Shown piece after piece: positions 752-63,810 of a DNA stretch of 64,000 bases. Within the stretch, counting starts at the first letter, position 1. Each line of letters begins with the position of its first letter. The notes under the pieces are model-generated. The model was not told the DNA's origin. It worked only from the letters and a program-made list of their open reading frames with translations, and made no database searches. The stretch covers positions 62,001 through 126,000 of the forward strand of contig NZ_JARNTV010000004.1 in NCBI RefSeq assembly GCF_029433115.1, in the 5' to 3' direction. The stretch comes from Sphingomonas sp. AOB5. GTDB lineage: Bacteria; Pseudomonadota; Alphaproteobacteria; Sphingomonadales; Sphingomonadaceae. The translations under genes and the position numbers were made by a program.

Positions 752-922
752 CGTCACATATGCTCCCTTCGCCGCAGGCGCGACGGATGGAGCGGACTTG
801 GACGGATGCCGTCTGAACGGGCGTCCGCATCGGCCCGTTGCGGCCCACATCGCCGCGCGGGACAGGCAAAGTCAATGGCCCGCTTTGCTCCCGGCGCATC
901 TCTTCGCTAGTGCGGCATCACC

Positions 923-37321: not shown

Positions 37322-37408
37322 GCGGTCGTGGCGGAACTGGTAGACGCGCAACGTTGAGGTCGTTGTGGCCGAAAGGCCGTGGAAGTTCGAGTCTTCTCGA
37401 CCGCACCA
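37322..37408 (+). tRNA. tRNA-Leu (anticodon GAG)
   Basis: An 87-base cloverleaf. The acceptor stem GCGGTCG (37322-37328) pairs with CGACCGC (37398-37404), followed by A and an encoded CCA. The anticodon stem CAACG/CGTTG encloses the loop TTGAGGT, giving anticodon GAG, which reads CUC and CUU codons. A long variable arm of class II type (TGGCCGAAAGGCCG) and the TTCGAGTC T-loop are visible. Accessory genes start right downstream, so the 3' end is a likely integration site. Confidence 0.96.
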
Positions 37409-38021: not shown

Positions 38022-40196
38022 ATGCGATTTGAGACGGCGCGCACCGAACAGGAAGTCTTCGACGACCTCGAGCGGCTCTGTGCATCCCCAGGCTATATCC
38101 ATGTCCTCGCCCTATTGTCGTTCCGCGACAATCTCGTTCTTCATTCGGGTGAGTTGACCAGCGAAGCGCTCGCCGCTTCCTACGCGCCGCAACGAACGAT
38201 ACGGACCGAATTCTCGACGCTGCTCGGGCTGATGCTCAAGCATCCGATCGATTTTGACCTGCCCAGCCCGACTGAAATGCAGCGCCTGATTGATTGTACG
38301 GGCGAGCTGCTCGAGGAACTTCACGCGTGCTTCAACATGCCAATGATGGCGGCGCTGAAGCGGGCTTTCGAGGAGGTGCAGGCCGGACTGACCATCGAAG
38401 AAGCGAGCCCGTTCCTGCGGGGCGATGTGCTCCGCGAGCCGATCTTCTATGGTGGCGAATCCGCCTACAGCTTTCAATATCGCGACTTCGCGGTGAAGCG
38501 TTACGCGCGCGACGATGACTGGCTCTTCGCCAACAAGGGGTTTCGCATCGCGGAAGGCCGAGCGGTTGCCGAAGCGCTTACCACCCTGCCGAACGACAAG
38601 CTCCTCGCGGTTCTCGACAAGGCCTGCGACGCGGACCCGACCACGTTGAGCTTCCTCCCCGGCTTCACCTTTTCGCTCGACGAGGTCGCCGCCGCCGCAA
38701 GCGTATCATCCAAGAGCGCAGCCGCTGTGCTTGCCGCGTTCACGGCACCGGAAGCGCCTTCCAATGCGGATTTCAGGACGATCGGCGACTTCAACCTGGC
38801 CAATGCCTATCCGATCCTGCGCACGCCATCCGACGACTACGTCTCGCTTCAGAGCTACGGCGTGGTCGAGGCCCTCTACGATTCCCCTTACTATTGGATG
38901 GCGGCCGACAAGGGGTACAGGAATACCGCCTTCCAACATCGCGGCGACTTCACTGAAAGCTTCGTGGCCGATCGCCTGGCGGCGGTCTTTGGCGAAGCGA
39001 ATGTCCACCGCGGGGTGAACGTCATCCGCAAAGGCGCTCGGGTCAGTGAAATCGACGTGCTGGTATTGTTCGCCAACCGCGCGATCGTCGTCCAGTGCAA
39101 GTCCAAAAAGCTGACGCTCGAAGCCCGGCGAGGCAACGACCTGCAGTTGCAGGACGATTTCAAGAAGGCGGTCCAGGACGCCTATGATCAAGCGCATCTG
39201 TGCGCAACGTCGCTGAGCGATCCGACCCTTCGCTTTGTCGGCTCCGGCGACGTCGCAATCGATATCTCGGAACTGCGCGAGATCTATCCTGTTTGCGTGG
39301 TATCGGATCACTATCCTGCGTTGGGCGCACAGGCGCGCCAGTTTCTCAGATTCCAGACCGATGCGATCATTCAGGCGCCGCTGATCGGCGATGTATTCCT
39401 GATCGACGTGTTGGCGGAGATGTTGCCGAGTCCGTTGCGCCTGCTGAGCTATGTCAACCGCAGGGTCGGCTATGGCGACCGGATCAACACGATCAACGAG
39501 CTGACGATCCTCGCCTATCACCTCAAGCACAATCTCTGGTTCGAAGACGAGATGAACCTCGTCACCATCGCCGACGATTTCAGCATTTCGCTGGACACGG
39601 CGATGACGGTTCGTCGCACCGGGATCGCGGGCGAACATACGCCAGACGGCATCTTGACCCGCCTCAAGGGCACGCTGGTCGGCCGGGTGCTCGCGAATAT
39701 CGAAACCCGGCCCGACGCGGCACTGGTCGACCTCGGCTTCCTCCTATTGTCGCTGGGCGGCGAGACGATCGACGATCTCAACCGCGGCCTGCAGCAAATT
39801 TCCGAGCAGACCCGTAGGGACGGCAGGAGCCATAATCTGACGCTCGGCTTCGACGATAGTCAAAGCGGGCTGACCATCCATTGCGGACCGCTGCCCAATG
39901 CCGAGGCGGCCGAAAAGCTGGCCGACCACTGCCGTCGCCGTAAATATGTGCATCGCGCTGAAGGCTGGTTTGGCCTTGCGGTTCGTGCCGATGACGGGTT
40001 GCCGAAGTTCGGGATACAGCTGAGCTATCCGTGGAAGCATGACAGTGCCTTGGAGCGACTCACGCGCGGAATGACCCGCAAGTCTCCGGCTCGGCCAGCT
40101 GCGGCCAGAACAACGGCACCTGGCGTCAAGGTTGGGAGAAATGAACTTTGCCCGTGCGGTAGCGGTAAGAAATTCAAAAAATGCTGCCTGACTTAG
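38022..40196 (+). CDS. Predicted PD-(D/E)XK nuclease with C-terminal SEC-C metal-binding domain
   Basis: A 724-residue protein not matching a named family in my knowledge. The N-terminal ~290 residues are helical. A restriction-nuclease-like core sits near residues 310-365: TESFVADRLAAVFGE (acidic helix), SEIDVLVLF (Asp) and AIVVQCKSKKL (the x-K element). This is NERD/Mrr-like. The C terminus has GRNELCPCGSGKKFKKCC, the SEC-C zinc motif. Such fusions occur in accessory islands and may be defence nucleases, which is inference. A strong terminator separates it from alpA, and its stop overlaps the convergent gene. Confidence 0.7.
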   Translation: MRFETARTEQEVFDDLERLCASPGYIHVLALLSFRDNLVLHSGELTSEALAASYAPQRTIRTEFSTLLGLMLKHPIDFDLPSPTEMQRLIDCTGELLEELHACFNMPMMAALKRAFEEVQAGLTIEEASPFLRGDVLREPIFYGGESAYSFQYRDFAVKRYARDDDWLFANKGFRIAEGRAVAEALTTLPNDKLLAVLDKACDADPTTLSFLPGFTFSLDEVAAAASVSSKSAAAVLAAFTAPEAPSNADFRTIGDFNLANAYPILRTPSDDYVSLQSYGVVEALYDSPYYWMAADKGYRNTAFQHRGDFTESFVADRLAAVFGEANVHRGVNVIRKGARVSEIDVLVLFANRAIVVQCKSKKLTLEARRGNDLQLQDDFKKAVQDAYDQAHLCATSLSDPTLRFVGSGDVAIDISELREIYPVCVVSDHYPALGAQARQFLRFQTDAIIQAPLIGDVFLIDVLAEMLPSPLRLLSYVNRRVGYGDRINTINELTILAYHLKHNLWFEDEMNLVTIADDFSISLDTAMTVRRTGIAGEHTPDGILTRLKGTLVGRVLANIETRPDAALVDLGFLLLSLGGETIDDLNRGLQQISEQTRRDGRSHNLTLGFDDSQSGLTIHCGPLPNAEAAEKLADHCRRRKYVHRAEGWFGLAVRADDGLPKFGIQLSYPWKHDSALERLTRGMTRKSPARPAAARTTAPGVKVGRNELCPCGSGKKFKKCCLT

Positions 40197-47422: not shown

Positions 47423-49393
47423 TTGGCGCTGGTGGTCGCTCTCAGCTGGCTTGCTATACACGCCCTAGCCGAAAGCGAGCCAACGCAACGTGAGCGCGAG
47501 CTTGCCGCTTTGCGGGCGCTGTATGAGCGCGTGGCGAGCAGCCGCTATCCCGATGCCGCCGCCATTGAGCGCTTCGTAGGGGCCATACTCGACGCCCTCG
47601 ACTACGAGCTGAGCGAACCCATGCGCGAGGCGCTCAGCGCGATTCTAGCCAACGAGCGCTTTCGGACCAACGCACCTGATTTTGAGAAGCTCGATCTTCG
47701 CCAGCTTGTCGAGCTTCGGAAAGAGTTGCGGACGTGGGAGCTAAAATCCGTAGACGGACAACAGCTCGCTGAAGCGTTCCTGCTCGGTGTGTTCTACGAG
47801 ATCGCTGAAGCGCTACCCAAGGCCCGCGATCCCAGTCCCTTCACCATTCCCTTCATATACGCCTTCCCCGACGCCCGCGCGTGGATATCCAGCCTCTACA
47901 AAACGCTCCTGGATGACCGCTATCAACAGCGTGAGATGTTTGAGTGGCTGCGAACCAAGCTCTATCTCAACATCTGCCACGCCTCTGGCATCGAGCCATT
48001 CTCGGAAAGCAGCAGGGCGCCGGTCCACGCATACAAGAGCGACCTTCCGCTTGGTCAACTCAATGACACGTACCTAGGCGGTACGCCATTCCACGCACTG
48101 TTCGCGTCTCCGGTGCCGCTCCAGCTCACGCACCAAGATCGCTTCAATCACATGCACGTGCTCGCCGGCAGCGGCGTCGGCAAAACGGTGCTCATAGAGA
48201 CGCTCATTCGGCACGATCTGCGGTCGCCCGAGCCGCCCAGCATCATCCTTATCGATCCCCACTCCGATCTTGTTCGCAAGCTCATGCGATCGGACCTTGG
48301 TATCGAGGATCGCCTCATTCTCCTTGATCCCCGCGACACCCAATACCCCGTCGCGCTTAATCCCTTCGCGATCAACCAAGAGCGCTTCAGCGGATATGAC
48401 GAGGTGACGCGCGAGCAGGTGACGGCCGGGGTCATCCAGACGTTCGGCTATCTCTGGAACGGCCTCACCAACCTGACGCTCACCGGCAAGCAGGAGGTGT
48501 TCTTCCGCTACGTGACGCGCCTCCTGCTCACGTTGCCGGAGGTTGAAGGTCGTAACGCGACGATCCTCGACATGCTGCGGCTCATGCATGACCCTGCGCC
48601 GTATCAAGCGGCGATCGGCCGGCTACCGGACATTCAGCGCGAGTTCTTCGAGCGCGATTTCAAATCCAAAATCTTCGAGGCGACTAGGGAGCAGATCCGT
48701 TACCGCCTTCAAGCCATTATCGAGAACCCCACTATGGCTCGGCTCTTCACGGCGCCCGAAACCAAAGTGGATTTCTTCACGGAGATGAACCGCGGCGCGG
48801 TCATCCTAGTCGATACCGCCAAAGACTTCCTCAAGGATGGCTCTGCGGTTTTCGGAAAGCTCATGATCTCGCTCATCCTCCAAGCCGTGCTTGAACGGGC
48901 CGCGATCCCGGAACACGAGCGTAAGCCCACCTTCCTCATGGTCGACGAGGCCGGAAGCTTCTTCTCAAGCAACATTGACGACCTGCTGACCGAGGCCCGC
49001 AAGTATAAATGCGGTCTCCTGCTGGCGCACCAATATCTCGATCAGGGTACGTCCTCCCTCCGAGCATCGCTCGCTGCGAATACGGGTATTAAGTTCGCGT
49101 CCGGCCTTTCGGCCCAGGACGCCTACGCTATGGCCCGCGACATGCGGACCTCGGCCGAATTTATCCTGAGCCAGCCCCGGCTCCAGTTCGCCGCACACAT
49201 ACGGCACGTAACTCCCTCGGCTGTGTCCATTCCAATCGAGCCGGTCAACGACAGCGGTTCGCTATCAGACGAGGCCTATCAGGCACTCATCGAACGCAAC
49301 CGCTCACGGGTTTCGCTCGGCCGCGCACCATCAGCGCGCACCGCTCCTCCAGAGGCGGCTCCGCTCCCCGAAGACATCAGTCCTGAGTGGTAA
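47423..49393 (+). CDS. Type IV coupling protein/HerA-like DNA-translocating ATPase
   Basis: A 656-residue VirD4/TraD-type ATPase. One N-terminal hydrophobic segment (about residues 1-16) comes first, then the P-loop domain with Walker A GSGVGKT at residues 249-255, the IDPHSDLVRKL region, and Walker B FLMVDEAGSFF with the Asp-Glu pair at about 508-509. The LLAHQYLDQ motif follows, as in type IV secretion-system DNA-binding ATPases. It would feed DNA to a mating channel. It starts at a TTG, so the true N terminus is uncertain. It is paired with a replication-relaxation gene. Confidence 0.85.
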   Translation: MALVVALSWLAIHALAESEPTQRERELAALRALYERVASSRYPDAAAIERFVGAILDALDYELSEPMREALSAILANERFRTNAPDFEKLDLRQLVELRKELRTWELKSVDGQQLAEAFLLGVFYEIAEALPKARDPSPFTIPFIYAFPDARAWISSLYKTLLDDRYQQREMFEWLRTKLYLNICHASGIEPFSESSRAPVHAYKSDLPLGQLNDTYLGGTPFHALFASPVPLQLTHQDRFNHMHVLAGSGVGKTVLIETLIRHDLRSPEPPSIILIDPHSDLVRKLMRSDLGIEDRLILLDPRDTQYPVALNPFAINQERFSGYDEVTREQVTAGVIQTFGYLWNGLTNLTLTGKQEVFFRYVTRLLLTLPEVEGRNATILDMLRLMHDPAPYQAAIGRLPDIQREFFERDFKSKIFEATREQIRYRLQAIIENPTMARLFTAPETKVDFFTEMNRGAVILVDTAKDFLKDGSAVFGKLMISLILQAVLERAAIPEHERKPTFLMVDEAGSFFSSNIDDLLTEARKYKCGLLLAHQYLDQGTSSLRASLAANTGIKFASGLSAQDAYAMARDMRTSAEFILSQPRLQFAAHIRHVTPSAVSIPIEPVNDSGSLSDEAYQALIERNRSRVSLGRAPSARTAPPEAAPLPEDISPEW

Positions 49394-49402
49394 AAATAGT
49401 TG

Positions 49403-49424
49403 CGGTGCGCATGCGTGCGCACCG
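49403..49424. repeat. Perfect palindrome between transfer genes
   Basis: The nine-base arms CGGTGCGCA and TGCGCACCG with a four-base spacer lie ten bases after the coupling-protein stop. It could be a hairpin attenuator or an operator for the next gene. No T tract follows. Confidence 0.6.
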
Positions 49425-49494
49425 TGAATCGCTCTGCTCCATACGATCCATATCGCTCGGTTACGGCGCCTATCGACTGCGCTACGCCCACCGC

Positions 49495-50415
49495 ATGTCC
49501 ACTGACGCGCTCTCCCGCCGCCTACGCCACGCTGCTCCCCAGCCTAGCGATGTGCGCCTATTGCTGACCGACGCGGACCTGCGCATCTTCGAAGCGATTG
49601 ACCGGCACGGACCTCTTCCGACCCACTACCTGTACGAGCTAACGCGCCACCTCCGCAGCAATCTCGCGAACCTGAAATACCGTCTGACCCACTTCTATAA
49701 CGGTGACGCGAACGGGCCATACCTCATCCGCCCGCCCCGGCAGTTCGCGGCATTCGATGCCAGATATCAGCACCTCGTATACGATCTCGCGCCTCGTGCA
49801 CGTACGCTGCTTGCTGAGCGTGGCACACTCACACGCCACCCGGTAAGGCGCACCGATCCGTTTCTCCACCAACTCATGCAAGCGTGTGTCGGTATCTCCT
49901 GTGAGATCACCGCAGGAAAGTGTGGCCTTCGCTATATCAGTCGGGGCGAGATCCTCACGCGTTCGGGCGCGACACTTACGATTCCGCTTCCTAGTGCTGA
50001 CCGCACGCTCACACCTGACGATCTGTTTGGGCTTGAATATCCCGGCCACGGCTTCCGCTTCTTCGCGGTCGAGGTCGACCGGAGCACCGAGAGCATTGAA
50101 CGGTCTAACATCGGCCAGACCTCCTATGGCCGGAAGGTCGCGAGCTATCTCAGCATCCTGCGTTCGGGCTTGTATCGTACACATTGGGGCATCCCCAATC
50201 TTACGGTGCTCACTGTTACGACCAACGGCACGCATGCCGCAAACATTCTGAGCAATATCCGCAGGAGTGAGACAGGACAGTTCGCGGAGCGGTTTCTGTT
50301 TCAAGCAGAGCCGACCTTTGGTGTGAACTGGCGAGTACCCCGCGATGTGCTCTCGCAGCTTCTGACGGGCGAATGGATGACGGTATCGGCGACGCGGAGC
50401 ATCGGGGAGGCATAG
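49495..50415 (+). CDS. Replication-relaxation family protein (MobC-like)
   Basis: A 306-residue protein with an N-terminal winged helix (RLLLTDADLRIFEAIDRHGPL, then YLYELTRHL and NLKYRLTHFY). The replication-relaxation core has FRFFAVEVDRSTESIER (about residue 195) and YLSILRSGLYRTHWGIPNLTVLTVT. Such proteins accompany coupling ATPases on integrative and mobilizable elements and are thought to act on origin DNA. The ATG at 49495 is preferred to a GTG at 49387. No relaxase gene is next to it. Confidence 0.78.
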   Translation: MSTDALSRRLRHAAPQPSDVRLLLTDADLRIFEAIDRHGPLPTHYLYELTRHLRSNLANLKYRLTHFYNGDANGPYLIRPPRQFAAFDARYQHLVYDLAPRARTLLAERGTLTRHPVRRTDPFLHQLMQACVGISCEITAGKCGLRYISRGEILTRSGATLTIPLPSADRTLTPDDLFGLEYPGHGFRFFAVEVDRSTESIERSNIGQTSYGRKVASYLSILRSGLYRTHWGIPNLTVLTVTTNGTHAANILSNIRRSETGQFAERFLFQAEPTFGVNWRVPRDVLSQLLTGEWMTVSATRSIGEA

Positions 50416-50690: not shown

Positions 50691-51929
50691 GTGGCGATCA
50701 ACGCACATCGCGCGCTATTCAGCGCTAAATCGGACGAAAACTATCTCGGTGAGCTGACTGTCGACGATAAGGAGCGGGAGGAACTGCGCGGGGTGCGCGA
50801 TACCCTTCGCGACGCGTTGAAGGCGGGCTTCGCCGAGTGGCCCCATTTTATCCTTAAACAGCGTCTGTTCGAAACCGCAGCGCTCAGCTTCGCCGACGGT
50901 GCCGAGCCGGTCCTTCGTCCAAAGTTCCGCATGCAGGGTAGCTGGTCTTACGATACTCTCAACCGGACAACCTATGACCCGCCGCAGGAAATCGATCTAG
51001 ACGATGGCGTTTTTCTTCCGGTCTCGTTCCTAACCCAGAATGGAGAGACGCACCCCGCGATCGTGAGCGGCGCCTATTTCGCCGCGGTTGAGGAAATCCT
51101 TGAGCCGGTCTGCGAAGAGAACGGCTGGGAACTAAACCGGGACAAGAACTCCTGCGTCAGGGTGCAGGTGCGCAAGGGTGCGCATGTCGATCTCGCACTC
51201 TACGCTATTCCCGACGACGATTTCCAAGTGCTGGTCGAGAAGGCCGAAGCCCGGGCCAATGCAAGCTTCGGCGCTCTTGCCCTCGACGAGGCTATGGCCT
51301 TCGACCAAGTCTACCCCACCTTGCCCGCCGATCACATCATGCTCGCCCATCGCGACGAGGGCTGGAAGCCTTCGGACCCACGCAAGCTCGAGACCTGGTT
51401 TCGAAATGCGATCGACCGGCACGGTTATCAGCTCCGTCGTGTTTGCCGCTATCTGAAGGGTTGGCGGGACCACAGCTGGGAGGGATGTCGTCTCAGCTCG
51501 ATCGCGCTGATGGCTGCGGTGGTCGACGCTTTCGACGACTGCGCCACCGCGCCGGCCGAGACGCGCGACGACCTTGCGTTGCAAATGGTGGCGGACGGCC
51601 TTGGCGACCGCCTCTCTACCGCCATCGTCAATCCTGTCGTACCCGGCCAGATCCTCGATGAGGGCTGGGACAAGGCGTGCCGGGAGGAATTTGTCGCAAA
51701 GGCGCGCGAGTTGGCCAAGGAGCTTAAGGTGGCTTTGTCGCAAGACACGCGCGCATCCGCGCTGGCGACCCTTCGCCGCACGCTCGGCGGCTATGTGCCC
51801 AACAATATCGATCTGCTCGATATCGTCGTTGCCGCGACGCCGGTGATTGTGACGCAGGGGCTGCTCGGCGAAACGCGGCCTGAGAGCCGTGACCCGGTCA
51901 AAATTGGCGGAGAGGCGCGCTATGGCTAA
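50691..51929 (+). CDS. cdnA: CBASS cyclic-nucleotide synthase (DncV-like CD-NTase, clade A)
   Basis: A 412-residue homologue of DncV. The nucleotidyltransferase motif is GSWSYDTLNR starting at Gly83, with metal-binding carboxylates Asp102 and Asp104 in EIDLDDGVF and Asp167 in HVDLALYAIPDDDF. SDPRKLETWF and CRYLKGWRDHSWEG match DncV helices. DncV makes 3',3'-cGAMP, and this one probably makes a related cyclic dinucleotide on phage infection. The last residue is Gly, as needed for Cap2 conjugation. The GTG start has AGGGAG upstream. It overlaps cap2 by eight bases. Confidence 0.93.
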   Translation: MAINAHRALFSAKSDENYLGELTVDDKEREELRGVRDTLRDALKAGFAEWPHFILKQRLFETAALSFADGAEPVLRPKFRMQGSWSYDTLNRTTYDPPQEIDLDDGVFLPVSFLTQNGETHPAIVSGAYFAAVEEILEPVCEENGWELNRDKNSCVRVQVRKGAHVDLALYAIPDDDFQVLVEKAEARANASFGALALDEAMAFDQVYPTLPADHIMLAHRDEGWKPSDPRKLETWFRNAIDRHGYQLRRVCRYLKGWRDHSWEGCRLSSIALMAAVVDAFDDCATAPAETRDDLALQMVADGLGDRLSTAIVNPVVPGQILDEGWDKACREEFVAKARELAKELKVALSQDTRASALATLRRTLGGYVPNNIDLLDIVVAATPVIVTQGLLGETRPESRDPVKIGGEARYG

Positions 51930-53676
51930 CATTCTCCCGCTCGGCATCGACCGGGCGGGGGCCATAGCAAGACTGGAAAGTTGGCTGATTGGTACTCTGG
52001 GCGCTCTCCGGCTTGGGCGCGTCAGAAGCGGATCCACCGACGGATGGCGGATCAAGGCAGAGATCGCGAGTCGGATTCTTGAACTCGATATCGAGATCCC
52101 GGATGAGTACCCGCGCAAACTGCCACAGGTCTTTCTCGCTAATCCACCCGCCTTCGGAACCTGGCCTCATGTCGAGTCCAACGGACGACTATGCATCACC
52201 TCGCCTTCCGACCGGTACGACCGAACCCGGCCGACTGATGTAGTGAAGGCACTGCTCGATGGTGCGTTTGACATACTCGACAAGGGCATCACGGGGGCGA
52301 ACGAAGATGATTTCCGATCCGAGTTTCTTTCCTATTGGGACATCACGGCCACGGGGCCGTATGTGCAATCATTGCTGGATCCGAGCGGCCCAAGCCGGGC
52401 GATAAAGCTCTGGCGTGGAAAGCGATTGTGCATTCTTTCGGAATCTAGGACGGACATCCGCCGCTGGCTCGGCAATCTAGGTAAGGCGCGTGTTGCCGAG
52501 GTCGCGATTAAGGACGCAGCCCTGTTATGGCTCGATCGTCCGCTCTTGCCGCGAGAGTATCCGAAGACTGTCGCGGACCTTTACGAAATTGCCGGCGGTG
52601 CTGCCGACAACGCGGTCGAGCTTCTGGATAGACTGTTGCGGTCGGCTAACGGACATATATTCACCGTCATCATCGGTGCCGTCGCCGGCAACGGGGCTTG
52701 CTTTGGCGGCGTCGAACTTGAGCTGCGACGCATAGACCGCGGGCGGAAAAAGAGGGGCACGTATCAGGGCGCGTCATCCCCGCAGGTCCGTCTCGGTCAG
52801 TGGAAGGAGGCGAGCCTAACCCGAACGCGCGTAGAGCGCGCCGACGCATTCTGGATTCATGGTCGGGATTCGAACCCGGACCTCCTAGAGCTGAGAACCG
52901 CAAAGATCGCGCTGGTGGGTTGCGGCTCGCTTGGGTCTCCGGTCGCGAGGCTTCTGGCGCTCGCAGGGGTCGGCAAGTTGGACTTGATGGATCCAGAAAT
53001 GCTCGAATGGGCGAATGTCGGGCGTCATGTCCTTGGCGTAGCCGCGCGCGGCAAGAACAAGGCGATCGCTCTCGCCGAGCAACTCGGTCGAGAGTTCCCC
53101 CATAGCCAGTTTGCCGGACATGGCAGACGCTGGCAGGAATGCGCTGAAACGCTCGAAGGATGCGATCTGATCATTAGCACGACCGGCATGCTCGATGACG
53201 AAGCCGAACTGACAATGTGGCAACGAGATCATACCGGAAAGGAATTCGTCTTTGGTTGGACCGAGCCGCGAGGGTGCGCCGCGCAAGCGGTGGCGATTCT
53301 TCCCGGCGCGGGTTGTCTCTTGTGCGGCTTCGACCTGTCTGGCGATCCAGAATTCCAGGCGACTAAATGGACCGAGGTGCCGCTTCAGCGCGAAGCGGCT
53401 TGCGGTAACTGGTTCATGCCCTACGGCGCGGGAGAGATCATGTCTGCCGCCGTACTCACGACTGAGTTGGCGCTAGGCGTTCTGACGGAACGGGCGTCGC
53501 CAGGCAACCATCGCATCCTATCATGTCGAACCGAAATACTAGAGGCAGCCGGAGGTGAATGGACTCCCGCTTGGCTGGCCGCGACTAGCGCAGACGCTCC
53601 AGGAGGGCGTGCGATCGAGCGGCACTGGCTACCTGACATCCAATGCCCAGCCTGCCAAGGCAAGGGTCCAGCATGA
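51922..53676 (+). CDS. cap2: CBASS Cap2, fused E2-E1 ubiquitin-ligase-like enzyme
   Basis: A 584-residue protein. The N-terminal E2-like domain (about residues 1-150) has its catalytic cysteine in GRLCITSP (Cys91). The C-terminal ThiF/E1 domain has the nucleotide loop GCGSLGSP at 333-340 and the probable E1 cysteine in AACGNWFMPYG (Cys494). CxxC pairs at 465-468 and 575-578 should bind zinc. Cap2 adenylates the cyclase C terminus and joins it to targets, priming the cyclase. The ATG at 51922 lies behind GGCGGAGAGG. It overlaps cap3 by four bases (ATGA). Confidence 0.93.
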   Translation: MANILPLGIDRAGAIARLESWLIGTLGALRLGRVRSGSTDGWRIKAEIASRILELDIEIPDEYPRKLPQVFLANPPAFGTWPHVESNGRLCITSPSDRYDRTRPTDVVKALLDGAFDILDKGITGANEDDFRSEFLSYWDITATGPYVQSLLDPSGPSRAIKLWRGKRLCILSESRTDIRRWLGNLGKARVAEVAIKDAALLWLDRPLLPREYPKTVADLYEIAGGAADNAVELLDRLLRSANGHIFTVIIGAVAGNGACFGGVELELRRIDRGRKKRGTYQGASSPQVRLGQWKEASLTRTRVERADAFWIHGRDSNPDLLELRTAKIALVGCGSLGSPVARLLALAGVGKLDLMDPEMLEWANVGRHVLGVAARGKNKAIALAEQLGREFPHSQFAGHGRRWQECAETLEGCDLIISTTGMLDDEAELTMWQRDHTGKEFVFGWTEPRGCAAQAVAILPGAGCLLCGFDLSGDPEFQATKWTEVPLQREAACGNWFMPYGAGEIMSAAVLTTELALGVLTERASPGNHRILSCRTEILEAAGGEWTPAWLAATSADAPGGRAIERHWLPDIQCPACQGKGPA

Positions 53677-54164
53677 TCAGCGTCGCTATCGGCCAGTCCG
53701 GAGAAACCTTGCTGCTGTCGGAAGCCGTGCTCGAGCATTTCAACGCCTGTCGCCAGACCCGTTTCTGGCATCGCGAAGCAGGGGGCCTGCTTTTCGCTCG
53801 CATCTCCGGTAACATGATCACGATCGAGGAAGCGACTGGCCCGCGGCCGACGGACCGCCGCTCGCGCTGTTCGTATCAGGGCGATCGCCGCGCTGAGCAG
53901 CAGGAGATCGACCAACGCCATCCGCTCGGGTTACACTACATCGGCGATTGGCATACTCATCCAGAGCCGAAGCCACGCCCCTCCGGGGCTGATGACCGCG
54001 CCATGATCAGCCGTATCAGCTCGTCCAAACACCAGCTTCAGAGCTTCTTGTACGTTATAGTTGGCACGGCCGCGTTTCCGGATGGTCTTGCGCTCGCGGT
54101 CCATGACGGTCGCACCCGTCTCGATCTGATGCTGGATAGCGTTGCCGCGAGTGCTACATCCTAA
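53673..54164 (+). CDS. cap3: CBASS Cap3, JAB/JAMM isopeptidase
   Basis: A 163-residue metalloprotease that reverses Cap2 conjugation. The JAMM set is complete: Glu35 in HREAGG, His94 and His96 in GDWHTHPEP, Ser104 and Asp107 in PSGADD. It starts at the ATG overlapping the cap2 stop. The last 11 bases are antisense to the effector gene on the other strand. With cdnA and cap2 it forms the type II CBASS core. Confidence 0.93.
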   Translation: MISVAIGQSGETLLLSEAVLEHFNACRQTRFWHREAGGLLFARISGNMITIEEATGPRPTDRRSRCSYQGDRRAEQQEIDQRHPLGLHYIGDWHTHPEPKPRPSGADDRAMISRISSSKHQLQSFLYVIVGTAAFPDGLALAVHDGRTRLDLMLDSVAASATS

Positions 54165-54840
54165 CCACCTCCAGTGTGCCGGCGGTGTTGAGGCCGCTGC
54201 GCCAGCTCCGCTTCGTCCAATATTCGCCTTTCAGAGTTGCTGCTTCGATATCGAGACTGAGATACGCAGCGCCAAGGTGCAGGGCTTCGTCAGTCTGCCG
54301 CGGCGTCGGCGTATTTTGGTTATAGAGATAGCCCAACTCGAAGCGTTCAAGATGGTCGTTCCAGCTTAGCTGGGCGCTGATCGAGTGGGAGGTGCCGCCC
54401 GTGTTGCTAAGCTTCCCCTCGACGCGAAGCCGAAAGAATGAGGCAGTGATCTTGAGTTCGATGTCGTCGTCCTGCAACGCGACTTGGTCGAGCTGGCCGG
54501 CATATCCCGGCTTTTCGCGCTTCTCATAGGCCTCGAACATGGCTTTGACCGACGGCCAATTCGAACGCGTCTTGCCCACCCACTTTCCATTTAGATCGGG
54601 GAAGAGAAGTCGATCAATACCCGGGATTCGCCAAAGCAATCGCCAGGGCCTCCACCACTGAGAGCCAGACCCGAACACGAACAGAAAGATGCCCCAGCCG
54701 CCGAGCACCTTGTTGGCCAAGCTCCAGCCCTCTGTTAGATTTTGTGGTGCATGCACGAGAGCCGTAAGTAGCACAAATATGCCGAGAGGCGGCAGCGCTA
54801 GCCAAGCTACGAGCCGTTTCAGCGATAGTGTTGAATACAT
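54154..54840 (-). CDS. cap15: Cap15-like CBASS effector (two membrane helices plus beta-barrel)
   Basis: A 228-residue protein. Two N-terminal membrane helices (about residues 9-30 and 43-62) are followed by a soluble beta-rich domain beginning PDLNGKWVGKTRSNW and ending GTLEVVRM. This is the layout of the SMODS-associating 2TM-beta effector family (Cap15), which binds the cyclic nucleotide and disrupts the inner membrane. The assignment rests on layout, motif feel and position. The ATG has GAGG upstream. Unlike usual CBASS order, it is convergent with and overlaps cap3, so it needs its own promoter from the downstream side. Confidence 0.82.
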   Translation of the reverse strand: MYSTLSLKRLVAWLALPPLGIFVLLTALVHAPQNLTEGWSLANKVLGGWGIFLFVFGSGSQWWRPWRLLWRIPGIDRLLFPDLNGKWVGKTRSNWPSVKAMFEAYEKREKPGYAGQLDQVALQDDDIELKITASFFRLRVEGKLSNTGGTSHSISAQLSWNDHLERFELGYLYNQNTPTPRQTDEALHLGAAYLSLDIEAATLKGEYWTKRSWRSGLNTAGTLEVVRM

Positions 54841-55086
54841 CTGGCGTCCTCGAATTGATATTGGCCGACTATCCGTAGCATGGCTGGAGATGGTAGAGCG
54901 AAACGCGGAATGTATCCATCTTGTAGTCTCGCCACTTGGAGTGTTGGGGAGGAGCCAATCTGCTTTCGGGGTGTACCTGAGTGCTGCTGAAAGACCGGGA
55001 AGCCCAGTCCCGAGGATATGAGGATGCGTTGCAGCGCTAACGTTTTCAGGCCACAGGGGGACATCTTCATCCGAAATGGATCAATC

Positions 55087-55509
55087 ATGGATACGCAGAA
55101 CGAAATGCAGGAAACCTTGATCACCCTGACCGCGGATATTGTCGCGGCGCATGTCAGCAACAATTCGGTTGCTGTCTCGGACCTTCCGACGCTCATCCAG
55201 AACGTCCATGGTGCGCTCTCGGGTCTCGGCACCGTCGCTGCGGAGCCGGAAGTGAAGCAGGAACCTGCGGTTTCGGTGCGTTCCTCGGTGAAGCCCGACT
55301 TCATCGTCTGCCTCGAAGACGGCAAGAAGCTGAAGATGCTCAAGCGCCACCTGATGACGCACTATCAGATGACGCCGGACCAGTATCGCGCCAAGTGGAA
55401 CCTGCCCGCCGACTATCCGATGGTCGCGCCGAACTATGCCGAGCAGCGCCGCACGCTCGCCAAGAAGATCGGTCTGGGCACCAAGCGCCGCAAGCGCACG
55501 ACACGCTAA
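55087..55509 (+). CDS. mucR: MucR/Ros-family transcriptional regulator
   Basis: A 140-residue zinc-finger regulator. An N-terminal oligomerisation part ([15 protein letters not shown]) is followed by the Ros/MucR finger [22 protein letters not shown] with Cys75, Asp78, His88 and His92, then [10 protein letters not shown] and a basic tail. Such proteins act as H-NS-like silencers of AT-rich DNA. The second zinc ligand is Asp rather than Cys, as in some rhizobial homologues. The start is ATG 55087, and the frame opens 23 codons earlier without support. It could regulate the neighbouring AT-rich genes. Confidence 0.93.
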
Positions 55510-55572: not shown

Positions 55573-56124
55573 CTAGCAGATGCTCTCGCAGGGGACGCCA
55601 TCGCCATCGCCATCAAGCCGACCCACGCCACAGGTGTTGAGATAGTGGTACGCCTCGGCGCAGCTATTCATCTGCCCACATTTCCACTTGCCGCCACATT
55701 GCCGGCTCGATTTGGTCGAAAGGCGCTTTCGGGCGGCAATTCGTTCTGGTGCAGGCGGAGGGGGTGCTGGCTTTACGGTCGACAACAGGCGCGATGAGAC
55801 CCAACAATCCGAACCCTGGCTGCGCTCGACCTTCGTCCAACTGCCATCGGTCTCAAGTGAGGTGACCTCGTCGCCTGACGACAGGCGCGCGACCTTGCGG
55901 CCTTTTGATTTCGGGGCGCTGCGGCAATTGGCAGAGGTACCCGACACATAGAGTGTCTCTCGGGCGCCTGTGGTTTCGGCGCCGATAGCACTGCCGGTAT
56001 CGGCAAACGCTTGAGGTTGCGTATTGGAGCTGTCGCCGCAGCGGCTCAGCATCATGACCGCGACGATAACGAGCACGACAAGGCCGCATCCATTAGATGC
56101 GCTAGATGAGCCAGTTGCGGCCAC
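55573..56124 (-). CDS. SH3-like and excalibur-domain membrane-anchored protein
   Basis: A 183-residue protein. A GTG start behind GGGGGAG leads into a hydrophobic segment (about residues 13-28) acting as anchor or signal. A bacterial SH3 domain follows (about 57-115: LYVSGTSANCRSAPKSKG to CWVSSRLLS), then a Pro-rich linker and a C-terminal excalibur calcium-binding motif DGDGDGVPCESIC with a cysteine-rich lead. It is probably envelope-associated. A short gene-free gap and the Cas5 gene lie upstream on the same strand. Confidence 0.8.
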   Translation of the reverse strand: MAATGSSSASNGCGLVVLVIVAVMMLSRCGDSSNTQPQAFADTGSAIGAETTGARETLYVSGTSANCRSAPKSKGRKVARLSSGDEVTSLETDGSWTKVERSQGSDCWVSSRLLSTVKPAPPPPAPERIAARKRLSTKSSRQCGGKWKCGQMNSCAEAYHYLNTCGVGRLDGDGDGVPCESIC

Positions 56125-56263: not shown

Positions 56264-56854
56264 CTAGAGAGCCAGAGTGGGACACCCCTTTGGGGGTACA
56301 AGTATGGTGCCATTCCTCATGGTGGCTTGAAAGAATCTCAGACCATTTGACGGTATTTCATCAAGATCATGAGCAATCCATCCAATTTCTCGGTTCTCGC
56401 GTGAGGCGGGCTGTGGAGTGTCTGCCGTGCCGCTCTCGACTAATTCAATCGTAGCCGGATATTCGCGCGCGCCCAGATAGGGTTCTCGGAAATAGCGCCT
56501 CGAGCGGACTCGTTTGATAAACATTTTTGAGTGCATGGCTGCGATGCTATCCGAGTTAGAGTGATCGATAACATCAAAATGTGCATCGATGAGGTAATCT
56601 ACATCCAACAGTGAGATGCTGCGTATAATTCCGTGTCTAGGACTGTGTGAATTTCGGTCTTCTTCGCAGAATAATATTGGGTTGAGCACGTGAATTGCGT
56701 CCACATGCCATCGTATCTGAGGCTTCCAGTATATTGATTCGTAGATGGCGCGAGCGGCAAAGGGAGTGATCACTTCGTAGCTAATTCGATCCACCTTAAA
56801 TTCAGGTCGAGCAAAACAGGCTTTGGGGCCGGAGACGCGTATCCTAAATGCCAT
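56264..56854 (-). CDS. cas5c: Solitary type I-C Cas5 (Cas5c/Cas5d)-like protein
   Basis: A 196-residue protein. FRIRVSGPKACFARPEFKVD opens a Cas5 RAMP domain, followed by ISYEVITPFAARAIYESIYWKPQ, DAIHVLNPI and FREPYLGARE, all hallmarks of Cas5 from subtype I-C, where it cuts pre-crRNA and caps the Cascade complex. Tyr42 and His108 match two processing residues, but the Lys expected before the His is Met107. The C terminus is short. No cas3, cas8c, cas7, cas1/2 or repeat array is nearby. Base composition is AT-richer than its neighbours, so transfer is likely. The ATG at 56854 has AGGA upstream. Confidence 0.82.
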   Translation of the reverse strand: MAFRIRVSGPKACFARPEFKVDRISYEVITPFAARAIYESIYWKPQIRWHVDAIHVLNPILFCEEDRNSHSPRHGIIRSISLLDVDYLIDAHFDVIDHSNSDSIAAMHSKMFIKRVRSRRYFREPYLGAREYPATIELVESGTADTPQPASRENREIGWIAHDLDEIPSNGLRFFQATMRNGTILVPPKGCPTLAL

Positions 56855-56874: not shown

Positions 56875-57501
56875 CTACAGCCATCCAAGCGCGTGGAAGC
56901 TCACGGCCTGGTCGCGCGACACCAGCACATGATCGAGCACGCGAATACCGAGCGGTTTTCCAGCCTTCGCGAGCATGTCGGTGATGGTTCGATCGGAGCG
57001 ACTGGGGGTCACATCTCCCGACGGATGATTGTGGGCGATGATGAGGCCGGTTGCACCCAACTCAAGCGCTCGCCGAATAATCTCGCGGATATAGATCGGC
57101 GCCTCGTCCACGGTCCCGCGGGCCAATTCCTCTTCAGCGAGGAGCCGATTTCCGGCGTCTAGATACAGTACGCGGACGATCTCGCGATGCGCGAACCCTT
57201 GGGCTACACGCGCATATTCCATCACCGCCAAGTCGTTGCTCAAAAGCGGGCGCTCATCCAGCCGTGTACGAAGGGACCAGAGCATTGCGTCATGCGTGGC
57301 ACTGATGACCGCAACGGCCTGACGATCATTCGTTGCGCTAGCCAGCTCCGTGCTGGGCGCAGCGAGGGTTGCGGACAGGGTTCCGAACCGCTCGATGAGA
57401 CGGTGTGCTAGCTCGCGGGCTGCGCTGCCGCAGGCAGGCGTGAGAAGTTGCTCCAAGAGGGATCGGCACCGTTCTGCGCAAGGCGTGTCCGGTGACGCCA
57501 T
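56875..57501 (-). CDS. radC: RadC-family JAB-domain protein
   Basis: A 208-residue MPN/JAMM protein. The helix-hairpin-like N-terminal half is divergent. The C-terminal half has the metal site HNHPSGD at about residues 157-163, then PSRSD (Asp about 170), and the terminal VSFHALGWL. RadC proteins are common on mobile elements, and their activity is unsettled. The start is uncertain: ATG 57501 was chosen, a TTG at 57543 is an alternative, and either overlaps the upstream membrane gene. It ends 20 bases before the Cas5 start, so the two may be one transcript. Confidence 0.88.
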   Translation of the reverse strand: MASPDTPCAERCRSLLEQLLTPACGSAARELAHRLIERFGTLSATLAAPSTELASATNDRQAVAVISATHDAMLWSLRTRLDERPLLSNDLAVMEYARVAQGFAHREIVRVLYLDAGNRLLAEEELARGTVDEAPIYIREIIRRALELGATGLIIAHNHPSGDVTPSRSDRTITDMLAKAGKPLGIRVLDHVLVSRDQAVSFHALGWL

Positions 57502-57884
57502 GTCCCGATCGCGAGCAGCAGAAGGGTCGGATAGGCGTTCCAAAAGTGGAGAACTCTATAGATTTCGACGTGCCGCTCAGGGGCGGCCCACATCACGAAT
57601 TGCAGTTCGATGCCGAGGCCCAGGAACGCAGCCATCCAAATCGGCCAGTATCGGTCTGCGCGCATGGCAAGCAGAACCACCGCAACCAGCATGACGATAT
57701 CGACGGCTAGGATACCGGTCTCTCGCGAGGTGAATGCCCAGCGCCATTGCTTTGCCGCGACGTAGGTGAGCGCCACTGCGCCAAGGATGATCGCCGTTGC
57801 GATGCGTTCAGGCGCTCCACCCCTGCTGCCGGCGTAAAGGCACGTGGCAACCAAGAGCATGAGGTAGACGGCGACATTCCACAT
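57408..57884 (-). CDS. Membrane protein of unknown function, 158 aa
   Basis: Five hydrophobic segments can be counted (about residues 3-18, 28-44, 58-75, 84-100 and 117-129), with a soluble Asn/Ala-rich tail. No family is recognised. Its 3' end overlaps the radC frame by about 95 bases on the same strand, an unusually long overlap, so either the radC start lies further in or the genes are genuinely nested. Confidence 0.6.
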   Translation of the reverse strand: MWNVAVYLMLLVATCLYAGSRGGAPERIATAIILGAVALTYVAAKQWRWAFTSRETGILAVDIVMLVAVVLLAMRADRYWPIWMAAFLGLGIELQFVMWAAPERHVEIYRVLHFWNAYPTLLLLAIGTWRHRTRLAQNGADPSWSNFSRLPAAAQPAS

Positions 57885-58335: not shown

Positions 58336-58902
58336 TTAGGGACGCGGGCGGTCGAGCGTTACGATCGCACCCGCGACAGTCAGAACGGCAATGCCAATGC
58401 CGGCTCCCATGCCGACTACCAGCAAGGCGATCAGAACGAGACGACGAAGTGGAGGAACACTTCGTGGACTACGCTCCGGCCCGGGAATGGGCGACCAACT
58501 CAGCATGTTGGGCGGACTAGAAAGAGCCGAATATGCTTTCAGCTCCTCGCGAACTCGTAGCCCCCCAACGGCCTCGTCGGCCGGTTCCCCGTCAGACTGC
58601 GAGGGTTCGATTGCCGGGACATCGACCGTTGGCTCAACGCGGGAAATTTGCTCGCGTACCGAATACGTGCCCTCGCGCTCCTCAAACTCACGAAGCAACC
58701 GTGCGGCTTCGCGGCTGCTCGCGGCGCGTAACGTCGCGCGAGCGCCGGCTAGATGGCCCTCAACGGTGCGCAGGCTAATGCCGAGCTCGTCGGCTATCTG
58801 GTGGAGATCCTTGAGTTCGCCCACGAGACGGAGACAGCTACGTTGCCGCTCGGTGAGCGACTTCACGCGTTCCGCAAACTGCTCCCAATCAGGCTGTGGC
58901 AT
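58336..58902 (-). CDS. LuxR-type HTH regulator with C-terminal membrane helix
   Basis: A 188-residue protein. The N-terminal helix-turn-helix is RVKSLTERQRSCLRLVGELK, then IADELGISLRTVEGHLAGAR (about residues 37-56), as in LuxR/GerE or sigma-70 region 4 domains. A disordered acidic linker leads to one membrane helix (about residues 157-182). A membrane-tethered DNA-binding protein is implied, and proteolytic release or ToxR-like action would be needed. The signal is unknown. It leads the same-strand run towards radC. Confidence 0.82.
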   Translation of the reverse strand: MPQPDWEQFAERVKSLTERQRSCLRLVGELKDLHQIADELGISLRTVEGHLAGARATLRAASSREAARLLREFEEREGTYSVREQISRVEPTVDVPAIEPSQSDGEPADEAVGGLRVREELKAYSALSSPPNMLSWSPIPGPERSPRSVPPLRRLVLIALLVVGMGAGIGIAVLTVAGAIVTLDRPRP

Positions 58903-61590: not shown

Positions 61591-63810
61591 ATGCACGTAT
61601 TGACTGGCAGCGCACGCACCGTGTCGCGCGGCGGCAACCAGACAACCGACTCGAGAACGACCCTGTTGGCAAAATCTGCTCTGTCACTGGTGATGGTGCT
61701 TGCTCAAGTGACGTGTGGTTGGGAAGCCCACGCGCAGTCGCAGGCGCAGGTAAGCGCGCCTCCACCTGAGCAGTACACGATTTCACCAGGCGGCGTGGAC
61801 ATGCGCTCTGGCGTATATGCGTATCGTATGGCCGACCTGTCGGTGCCGAAGTTCGATCTTGAGCGCACCGACGCCGCCGGTCTTCCGGGTTCCCCCGCGC
61901 CGTTCGCCAGCATGGGGCATAACTGGAGTATCATGCTGACGGAACGTCGGCAGAATCTGATTTCTCATGCAATCGTGAGCGCAGGGCAGTCCGATTATCA
62001 GGTCTATGTCTCGGTCGATGGCCGGACCGAGACATTCCAGGCATTGGGCATCGATTGGCCCTTCGAACAAATGTCGCGGACACCGATGGCGCGTCTCGCC
62101 CATACCGGTTCGCGTGGCGCTGGTGGTGAAGTGTACACCTACACGGCTGCGGACGGCTCCACGATCGTGTTCAGAGCGCTGCCTGCGATCGGTGCAGCAG
62201 ACTGCTCGACTACAATACGATGCGCCTATGCGTCGGAAGTGAATGCGGTCGATGGCACGAAGTATACGCTGCAATATGATACCCGCACGACCGGCAACCG
62301 GGCGCGGCTGAAGAGCGTTACAAGCAGTCGTGGGTATCTGCTCCTGTTCGAATACACGAACGCCGACTGGAACCTAGTTACCAAGGCATGCATCTATAAC
62401 CTTGCGGCTTCGCTGGCGCCGACAGACGGCCTTTGCTCGTCGGCTGCATTGGCCACCACCAGCTATAGCTATACCAGTTACGCGAGCGAGCCGAAGCTGG
62501 CCAGCGTTACGGATGCGGCCGGCAAGGTGTGGACCTTCGCCTATGCGGCGGGAACGATCGGATCCAAGACATATCAGAAGGTCAGCTATTCCCGGCCCGA
62601 TGAGACCACCCCTTGGCTCGTCAACTGGACGGCGCCACAGAAGAACAGTTTCTTCGTCGACCAAGATGTCACCTGGAAGCAGGATTTCGCTGACGGATCG
62701 ACCTATTCCTATAATTTCGACTTCAGCCCGAGCCAGATTGGCGCGCCTCCCGGGGCGCCAGAGCATGTGCTTGCTGGGGGCACCTACACAGATAATCTCG
62801 GACGCACGACCACGGTAACTTTTGGTTTTCCGGAAGTCCCCTACTCGATGAGCAATCAGCTGCCGGGGTCCGGGACCGGCGTCATCCTGTTGTACCACCT
62901 GCAAAAGCCGACGCTCCCGGCAATTCTCACCAGCCGATCCGATCCGGACTATGATCTGAATGTCATGGCGAATGATCAGAGGGATGCGTTCAACAATGTC
63001 CTGCTGACTTCCGATCTTCTCCAACAGGCGCACTGCAACGAGTGCTCTGGCCCAGCGGGATATAAGTTCAACATCGCATATCAAATCACGCCCGGACCGA
63101 CGGCGGTTACCGACGCGCTCGGACGAACGACAAGCTTCGATTATTGCGATAAGGCAGTCGTATACCCGCAATATGAGCCATTCACTTGTCTTACCGTGGG
63201 GTTGATCCAGTCATGGACAGACCCTGAAGGTATCCGGACGGAATATAAATATCTGAGCAGCCGTCGCACGGAGAGCCGGCGGATCGCGAAGCCGGGTTCG
63301 GGGCTGGTCGATATCGTCGAAAGTGCAACCTATTCGGACTGCACCTCGATGAAGGTCTGTCAGCAACCCCTGACCGTCACCGACGCCAATCAGAACACCA
63401 CGACCTATACCTACGATCCAGCGCACGGAGGCGTTCTCACGGAAGTCAGGCCTGCGGTGAACGGCGTCTCCCCCGCGAAGAAATACAGCTATTCGCAGCG
63501 ATATGCGTGGATCAAGAACAGCGGCGGCGGATACAGCCAATCGACTGCCGCGCAGTGGCTGCTGACCGAGGTCAGGACGTGTATCTCAAGCACGTTGAAC
63601 CTGACTACAGGGACCTGTGCCGCCGGAACATCCGATCTTGTGATAACCAACTATGATTATGGCCCGGATTCGGGGCCGAACAATCTGTTGCTTCGTGGAA
63701 CGGTCGTGACGTCGAACGGGACCAGTCTGCGAACCTGCTATGGGTACGATAAGGCAGGCAACAAGATCAGCGAGACCACACCGCGTGCGGAGTTGACCGC
63801 ATGTCTGTGA
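61591..63810 (+). CDS. Large secreted RHS/YD-repeat protein
   Basis: A 739-residue protein. A long N-terminal signal (about residues 1-50, ending AHAQ) is followed by PPPEQYTISPGGVDMRSGVY, then many YD-like beta repeats such as YTNADWN, ALGRTTSFDYCDK and TTYTYDPAHGG. RHS proteins form a beta shell and often deliver a variable C-terminal toxin. Here the frame ends without a clear toxin domain, seven bases after the start of another RHS-like frame. Cysteines are frequent, fitting a periplasmic or extracellular setting. Confidence 0.8.
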   Translation: MHVLTGSARTVSRGGNQTTDSRTTLLAKSALSLVMVLAQVTCGWEAHAQSQAQVSAPPPEQYTISPGGVDMRSGVYAYRMADLSVPKFDLERTDAAGLPGSPAPFASMGHNWSIMLTERRQNLISHAIVSAGQSDYQVYVSVDGRTETFQALGIDWPFEQMSRTPMARLAHTGSRGAGGEVYTYTAADGSTIVFRALPAIGAADCSTTIRCAYASEVNAVDGTKYTLQYDTRTTGNRARLKSVTSSRGYLLLFEYTNADWNLVTKACIYNLAASLAPTDGLCSSAALATTSYSYTSYASEPKLASVTDAAGKVWTFAYAAGTIGSKTYQKVSYSRPDETTPWLVNWTAPQKNSFFVDQDVTWKQDFADGSTYSYNFDFSPSQIGAPPGAPEHVLAGGTYTDNLGRTTTVTFGFPEVPYSMSNQLPGSGTGVILLYHLQKPTLPAILTSRSDPDYDLNVMANDQRDAFNNVLLTSDLLQQAHCNECSGPAGYKFNIAYQITPGPTAVTDALGRTTSFDYCDKAVVYPQYEPFTCLTVGLIQSWTDPEGIRTEYKYLSSRRTESRRIAKPGSGLVDIVESATYSDCTSMKVCQQPLTVTDANQNTTTYTYDPAHGGVLTEVRPAVNGVSPAKKYSYSQRYAWIKNSGGGYSQSTAAQWLLTEVRTCISSTLNLTTGTCAAGTSDLVITNYDYGPDSGPNNLLLRGTVVTSNGTSLRTCYGYDKAGNKISETTPRAELTACL

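Follow-up and report, generated by a model that had tools for sequence, protein, structure and literature searches.

The 64,000-nucleotide stretch analysed here (the window) spans positions 62,001 to 126,000 of contig NZ_JARNTV010000004.1 of Sphingomonas sp. AOB5. It carries a solitary type I-C cas5 gene whose product lacks the catalytic lysine and most of a conserved loop of the Cas5c (Cas5d) proteins encoded in CRISPR (clustered regularly interspaced short palindromic repeats) operons.

56264 to 56854, minus strand: solitary Cas5c homologue of 196 amino acids (profile matches, alignment and predicted fold)

This reading frame had been located and named Cas5c/d in a first-pass annotation made from the sequence without database searches, and both points are borne out. 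The protein matches TIGR01876, the NCBIfam Cas5c model (8.3e-35, 120.8 bits, above the curated cut-off of 85), the PADLOC Cas5c profile (5e-52) and Pfam PF09704 (2.3e-22), and it has a sequence match in the PDB to 7kha (3.1e-41). Its predicted structure matches the Cas5d fold, so that the profile search and the structure prediction which the annotation had proposed both gave positive results. Several chromosomal relatives score under the TIGR01876 cut-off. The start ATG lies at 56854, downstream of GTGAGGACTGCT, which contains a GAGG Shine-Dalgarno-like run. As had been noticed, the gene follows radC on the same strand, with a gap of 20 bp, and is AT-richer than its surroundings: its GC fraction is 0.491, whereas radC has 0.622 and the next gene 0.611. 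The two genes are probably carried on one transcript.

Partner genes were sought by tblastn with two full sets of type I-C Cas proteins. In the window and its contig flanks (L043 and L044), only cas5 was found, and no CRISPR array was seen. Across the host genome (99.6% complete), neither cas7c nor cas1 gave a match; the searches for cas8c and cas3 covered the window and flanks only. The earlier observation that no other cas gene or array is visible therefore holds, and no I-C cas7, cas8c or array lies just outside the window either. The gene is thus not encoded with cas8c and cas7c, and represents a homologue of a Cascade (CRISPR-associated complex for antiviral defence) subunit without other cas genes.

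Solitary genes of this type recur in the genus. In a first survey of relatives, 16 of 120 genomes, the host's own among them, matched Cas5c. The genus is probably Sphingomonas, since within its family G509 has a cas operon with very high-scoring matches to the Zymomonas one. Among 295 genomes of the genus, 36 had a profile match and 35 had one with a wider profile, the one lost (G029) being a match of 31 residues. The solitary gene is found in 29 of these 35 (as a fragment only in G014), and an I-C operon in the other six (G005, G023, G199, G223, G332 and G336), that of G199 being partial, with no cas7c or cas1 match. Solitary genes therefore outnumber I-C operons by about 5:1 (29 versus 6 of 295 genomes), and a Cas5 profile used alone would overcount type I-C systems in annotation. 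In the family, 11 of 397 genomes gave a match: three of the genus, seven with operons, and G603 with two solitary genes. In the class, 15 of 385 did so; besides the host genome, 13 of 14 had cas3 or cas8 within the fetched 1.5 kb or so on each side, and in G1071 (L228, 46.6 bits) no cas gene was seen that close to the match. Two solitary copies at separate places were seen in each of G064, G156, G163, G231, G255 and G603. Altogether, 35 of the loci examined lack a second I-C cas gene (solitary loci) and 99 have at least one (operonic loci). Flanks of solitary loci were mostly 9-10 kb, shorter at contig ends, with a minimum of 2.4 kb; the 80 contig loci are the best 80 of 89 found through motifs of the window protein. 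The isolated or orphan cas loci of PMC5294841 are likewise cas genes away from arrays; as defined in that source they comprise at least three cas genes, a definition outside which single cas5 genes fall.

A Cas5 without partners might still be a working part of a CRISPR-type system in trans, together with cas genes elsewhere in the genome or with a guide RNA that escaped annotation. We consider this very improbable. The core motif of the protein is retained, three of the 29 genomes with a solitary gene encode a cas1 of some system, and these 29 genomes together contain 18 copies of the handle-like pattern GCGYGGATYGAAAC versus 0 of the control, the pattern read backward. At 9 of the 35 loci, handle-like matches of 8-9 bases are also present no more than 1 kb from cas5, a count that has no chance control. 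However, cas7c is present in none of the 29 genomes, the host genome has no cas1 match, and no array is found at any solitary locus. Moreover, the pattern is scattered, with 0-3 copies per solitary genome, whereas five of six operonic genomes have 9-72 copies on a single strand. A remote partner was thus rejected, on the counts for cas7c and cas1 and on a handle pattern without arrays, in spite of its excess over the control.

The catalytic positions were then compared between the two classes in an alignment of 98 operonic and 33 solitary proteins. The solitary rows come from 31 of the 35 loci and from two proteins taken without their genomic context, P0002 and P0003; sequences under 150 amino acids were left out, namely four solitary loci (L037, L092, L116 and L122) and one operonic (L047, which with L046 forms contig pieces of a single genome). 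A putative catalytic triad of Tyr, Lys and His is described for Cas5d in PMC3652601. In the window protein, the lysine slot is occupied by Met107 and His108 is kept, as the first-pass annotation had read it, and the triad is therefore incomplete. Tyr42 and His108, proposed there as its retained members, are indeed present, but neither is diagnostic among operonic Cas5c proteins, since the 98 have Tyr (79 proteins), His (18) or Leu (one) at the first position, and the second is Tyr in six of 15 further operonic loci. These six (L224-L227, L229 and L230) have Lys-Tyr rather than Lys-His as catalytic pair. The lysine itself is present in all 98 operonic proteins and in all 15 further loci, versus two of the 33 solitary ones (L036 and L115). 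L115, from another genus, genuinely has Lys-His; the lysine of L036, in which the surrounding helix is missing, is probably an alignment effect. Among 11 relatives inspected by eye, picked mainly for short length among at least 120 matches listed, none had Lys before His at this slot.

A second loss had been overlooked. From the segment at positions 59-82, about 24 residues (RRNE...RQQRA) are missing, and 24 residues remain in the window protein. Its length is 37-56 residues in the 98 operonic proteins, 34-49 in the 15 further operonic loci and 16-37 in the 33 solitary proteins, ranges that overlap at the edge (37 in solitary L097, 34 for the operonic minimum). The RRNE and RQQRA residues of this loop are invariant or nearly so in the operonic proteins. 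Position by position, they are kept in 3, 1, 2 and 6 (RRNE) and in 15, 0, 1, 13 and 1 (RQQRA) of the 33 solitary proteins. Ala12, Arg16, Pro17, Glu18, Tyr26, Trp49, Gly128 and Gly158 are retained in 30-33 of the 33, and the window copy, with Lys20, Lys44 and Arg130 still present, is among the less altered. Thus, the window protein resembles type I-C Cas5 in its profile score, predicted fold, N-terminal motif and His108, but differs from it in the missing operon, the missing lysine and the shortened 59-82 segment.

In a tree of 85 of the 131 aligned rows (operonic rows thinned, quick tree method), a single branch divides solitary from operonic proteins, with a Shimodaira-Hasegawa-like approximate likelihood ratio test (SH-aLRT) support of 87. 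When the trait columns were removed, the support was 97 and none of 500 label shuffles equalled it; the explanation of the split as a deletion artefact was therefore rejected. A single origin of the solitary family is likely from this tree, not proven, because the branches are long. The window protein is most closely related to proteins from metagenomes or environmental sources, with 57-61% identity, and among the loci the next nearest is L097, a copy beside proS. The ratio of nonsynonymous to synonymous substitution rates (dN/dS) was 0.07-0.45 in the 14 of 21 solitary pairs (over 50% identity) that gave an estimate, and 0.06-0.16 in 27 operonic pairs (over 75% identity). Several of the solitary values have dS above 1, a broken copy (L037, L120 or L121) is one partner in three of the 14 pairs, seven pairs gave no estimate and none contains the window gene. 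On these ratios, the solitary genes compared are under purifying selection, a real constraint but a looser one than in the operonic genes.

These data bear on the idea that the gene is a functionless, decaying remnant of a lost I-C operon. Six of the 35 solitary copies are broken by stops or frame breaks (L037, L092, L116, L120, L121 and L122), and the catalytic residue and the loop are gone, as decay would have it. However, the other 29 copies are open, and the outcome that the annotation had named as refuting, homologues found exclusively as broken operon remnants, did not occur; dN/dS is well below 1 in every estimated pair; and no other I-C cas remnant is present at any of the 35 loci. Finally, independent operon losses are not expected to place all solitary rows on one side of a single branch. 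A decaying remnant is hence improbable, if slightly less so than a system working in trans.

Most relatives lie at chromosomal spots common to several species. The gene proS directly follows the solitary cas5 in 14 of the 35 loci (a fifteenth proS neighbour occurs in G006), EamA is beside it in 15 (small open reading frames allowed) and priA in six; L031, L032 and L096 share a third spot. Among 30 proS loci (40 of 41 genomes matching), EamA lies at most 440 bp from proS without cas5 in 14 and with cas5 in between in two. The EamA-proS gap with or without cas5 therefore reflects a single gene present or absent at a fixed place. In G016, a different open reading frame with no match to the solitary-Cas5 profile (L263:602-1501) occupies this gap, and the spot may thus accept other inserts.

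Such chromosomal homes, together with the absence of cas7c from genomes with a solitary gene, could indicate a domesticated RNA binder, that is a Cas5 fold freed from CRISPR which would bind cellular RNA (tRNA, an mRNA leader or a small RNA), with the window copy as a mobile paralogue. This reading is possible but doubtful. The gene is patchy (29 of 295 genomes) and six copies are broken, which makes it dispensable, and no Rfam family was detected at the gene when the window and four solitary loci were scanned. Known RNA families were rejected as a lead there, the glycine riboswitches found lying several kb away.

Unlike most of its relatives, the window copy lies on an integrated element, whose features within the window are as follows.

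37322 to 37408, plus strand: tRNA-Leu(GAG), of which the last 14 bases (37395 to 37408) form the left repeat (repeat search)
37395 to 64000, no strand: portion of the integrated element that falls within the window (GC 0.591 versus 0.667 left of the element)
47423 to 50415, plus strand: coupling-type ATPase (47423 to 49393, PF01935/PF10412) and Replic_Relax protein (49387 to 50415, PF13814)
50691 to 54840, both strands: type II cyclic-oligonucleotide-based antiphage signalling system (CBASS), with cyclase, E1-E2 and JAB on plus and a Cap15/2TM effector on minus (PADLOC; PF18153)
55018 to 55509, plus strand: ROS/MucR-type regulator (PF05443, 1.1e-51), with a relative near the L030 solitary cas5
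55573 to 56124, minus strand: SH3_3 and Excalibur protein, downstream of cas5 (PF08239, PF05901)
56875 to 57543, minus strand: radC, RadC-like JAB (PF04002, 3.7e-37; TIGR00608, 142.7 bits, cut-off 133.85)
57408 to 57884, minus strand: predicted membrane protein, by appearance, with no Pfam match over cut-off; L104 has a relative of 43% identity some 5 kb away from its solitary cas5
58336 to 58902, minus strand: LuxR/GerE-type regulator (PF00196, cluster C35), with a relative about 6 kb from the L104 cas5

The right repeat was found at L044:12800-12813 (window coordinates 76800-76813), giving an element of about 39.4 kb that runs past the window end. A tyrosine integrase (PF13356, PF00589) lies 132 bp from this repeat, and the L044 portion also encodes a coupling-type ATPase, ParB and a serine recombinase. 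The repeat search compared 26 kb with 3.5 kb on the same strand and yielded two matches of 14 bases, versus an estimate of about 0.3 for random sequence; the other match touches no tRNA, and it is the tRNA end that lends credibility to this repeat. Thus, the tRNA-Leu repeats, integrase, coupling-type ATPases, Replic_Relax protein, ParB and serine recombinase support the mobile setting suggested at first, and the integrated element is probably mobile. By its position, the type II CBASS is cargo of this element. Some of the element's genes recur near other solitary copies: radC and MucR at L030, and the serine recombinase, LuxR and membrane protein genes at L104; a relative of the integrase lies near the broken copy L122. 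The recurrence beside radC that the annotation had thought worth surveying is limited, radC being adjacent or one small gene away in two of the 35 solitary loci (the window and L030), and about 6.4 kb distant in L115. The solitary Cas5 of L030 (L030:9608-10321) has a C-terminal extension of about 45-50 residues and adjoins a gene of 123 amino acids (no Pfam match) and a RadC-like gene.

We propose, with a probability of roughly 0.45, that the window protein is a decoy which would replace Cas5 in the I-C Cascades met by the element and inactivate them. The proposal builds on homology, predicted fold, missing partners, loss of Lys107 and of RRNE/RQQRA, the solitary family and the integrated element, all of which come from sequence and prediction. 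In type I-C, Cas5c and Cas7.7 are described as clamping the 5' handle of CRISPR RNA (crRNA) and so nucleating assembly (PMC7684278), and the pre-crRNA cut is attributed to Cas5 (PMC5965380). The retained core (ACFxRPE, Tyr26, Trp49, Gly128 and Gly158) may still bind the crRNA 5' handle or Cas7. Having lost the catalytic lysine, the protein could then not cut pre-crRNA and, without the loop, would not support a working complex, leaving Cascade stalled; the lost segment may be part of the thumb or of the Cas8c contact. For the chromosomal relatives we suggest an identical mechanism, less firmly. In Pseudomonas, a type I-C system carried by a conjugative island has been described, as have inhibitors of it that mobile elements carry (PMC7913775).

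The first-pass annotation had offered a decoy, a subunit mimic or a repurposed RNA binder. None of the findings that it named as decisive against them was made, and the decoy is preferred here over the RNA binder. Subunit mimicry has a tested precedent in AcrIB3 of type I-B, which takes the place of the native Cas5 and lacks an 18-residue hook for Cas8b binding (PMC13131331). Like AcrIB3 as described there, the window protein is a Cascade Cas5 homologue with a loop deletion, though possibly of a different loop, and its inhibition of Cascade is a prediction. Unlike AcrIB3, the window protein derives from a I-C and not a I-B Cas5, has also lost the processing residue, and has mostly chromosomal relatives. 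To our knowledge, Cas5 is not the processing enzyme of type I-B. AcrIB3 is solitary and on a mobile element, and mobile carriage is a trait of Cas-derived anti-CRISPRs, one that the window copy has and most of its relatives do not.

Several observations weigh against the decoy. The host itself has no cas7c or cas1 match. The positions before proS and beside priA are odd for an anti-CRISPR, and these chromosomal locations, like the absence of cas7c from genomes with a solitary gene, favour the domesticated RNA binder. AcrIB3 is described as needing an extra 6-residue loop (PMC13131331). Clades of the solitary family share about 30% identity, a divergence that might signify loss of the Cas5 interfaces, and the selection estimates describe relatives and not the window gene. 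When 1512 I-C spacers (433 of them from 16 sphingomonad-side loci) were compared with the element and the solitary loci, no match exceeded 22 bases; the best among the matches listed were of 16-22 bases and chance-like. No relatives were found in viral contigs in three motif scans. All 52 plasmid matches were less than 60% identical, and 43 of them are annotated as I-C Cas5. A phage origin was rejected, given the empty viral scans and a sole phage-collection match, MT836695.1, that is a full I-C operon. In this entry (L268, "Bacteriophage sp.", marked UNVERIFIED), which is perhaps bacterial DNA, all the I-C cas genes lie within 9 kb.

For the family as a whole, the chances seem even that one processing-dead Cas5c origin gave rise to a sphingomonad family at fixed chromosomal spots and on mobile elements, where it would act either as a shield, chromosomal and mobile, against incoming I-C Cascades or as an independent regulator that binds RNA. 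Cas subunits set loose from CRISPR are a known kind; within the scope of the literature searched, the novelty lies in the derivation from I-C, the loss of the processing residue and the existence of a chromosomal family. No report of a solitary Cas5c family was found among the titles and beginnings of abstracts listed in searches of largely openly accessible literature. We know of few cas genes that have been redirected against CRISPR or recruited for a different purpose. Here an entire family shows signatures at the residue level, separates in a single step on the tree and has chromosomal as well as mobile members, so that the route by which a Cascade subunit became a decoy or an RNA binder can be tested.

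Three further features of the region were noted. The first long gene past the left repeat (38022-40196) encodes a NERD and SEC-C protein, possibly a further defence gene. A large YD-repeat (RHS-like) protein, named by appearance, extends over two open reading frames across the window end (61591-63810 and L044:146-2446). Finally, an Rfam match to chrB-b RNA lies at window positions 792-838, outside the element.
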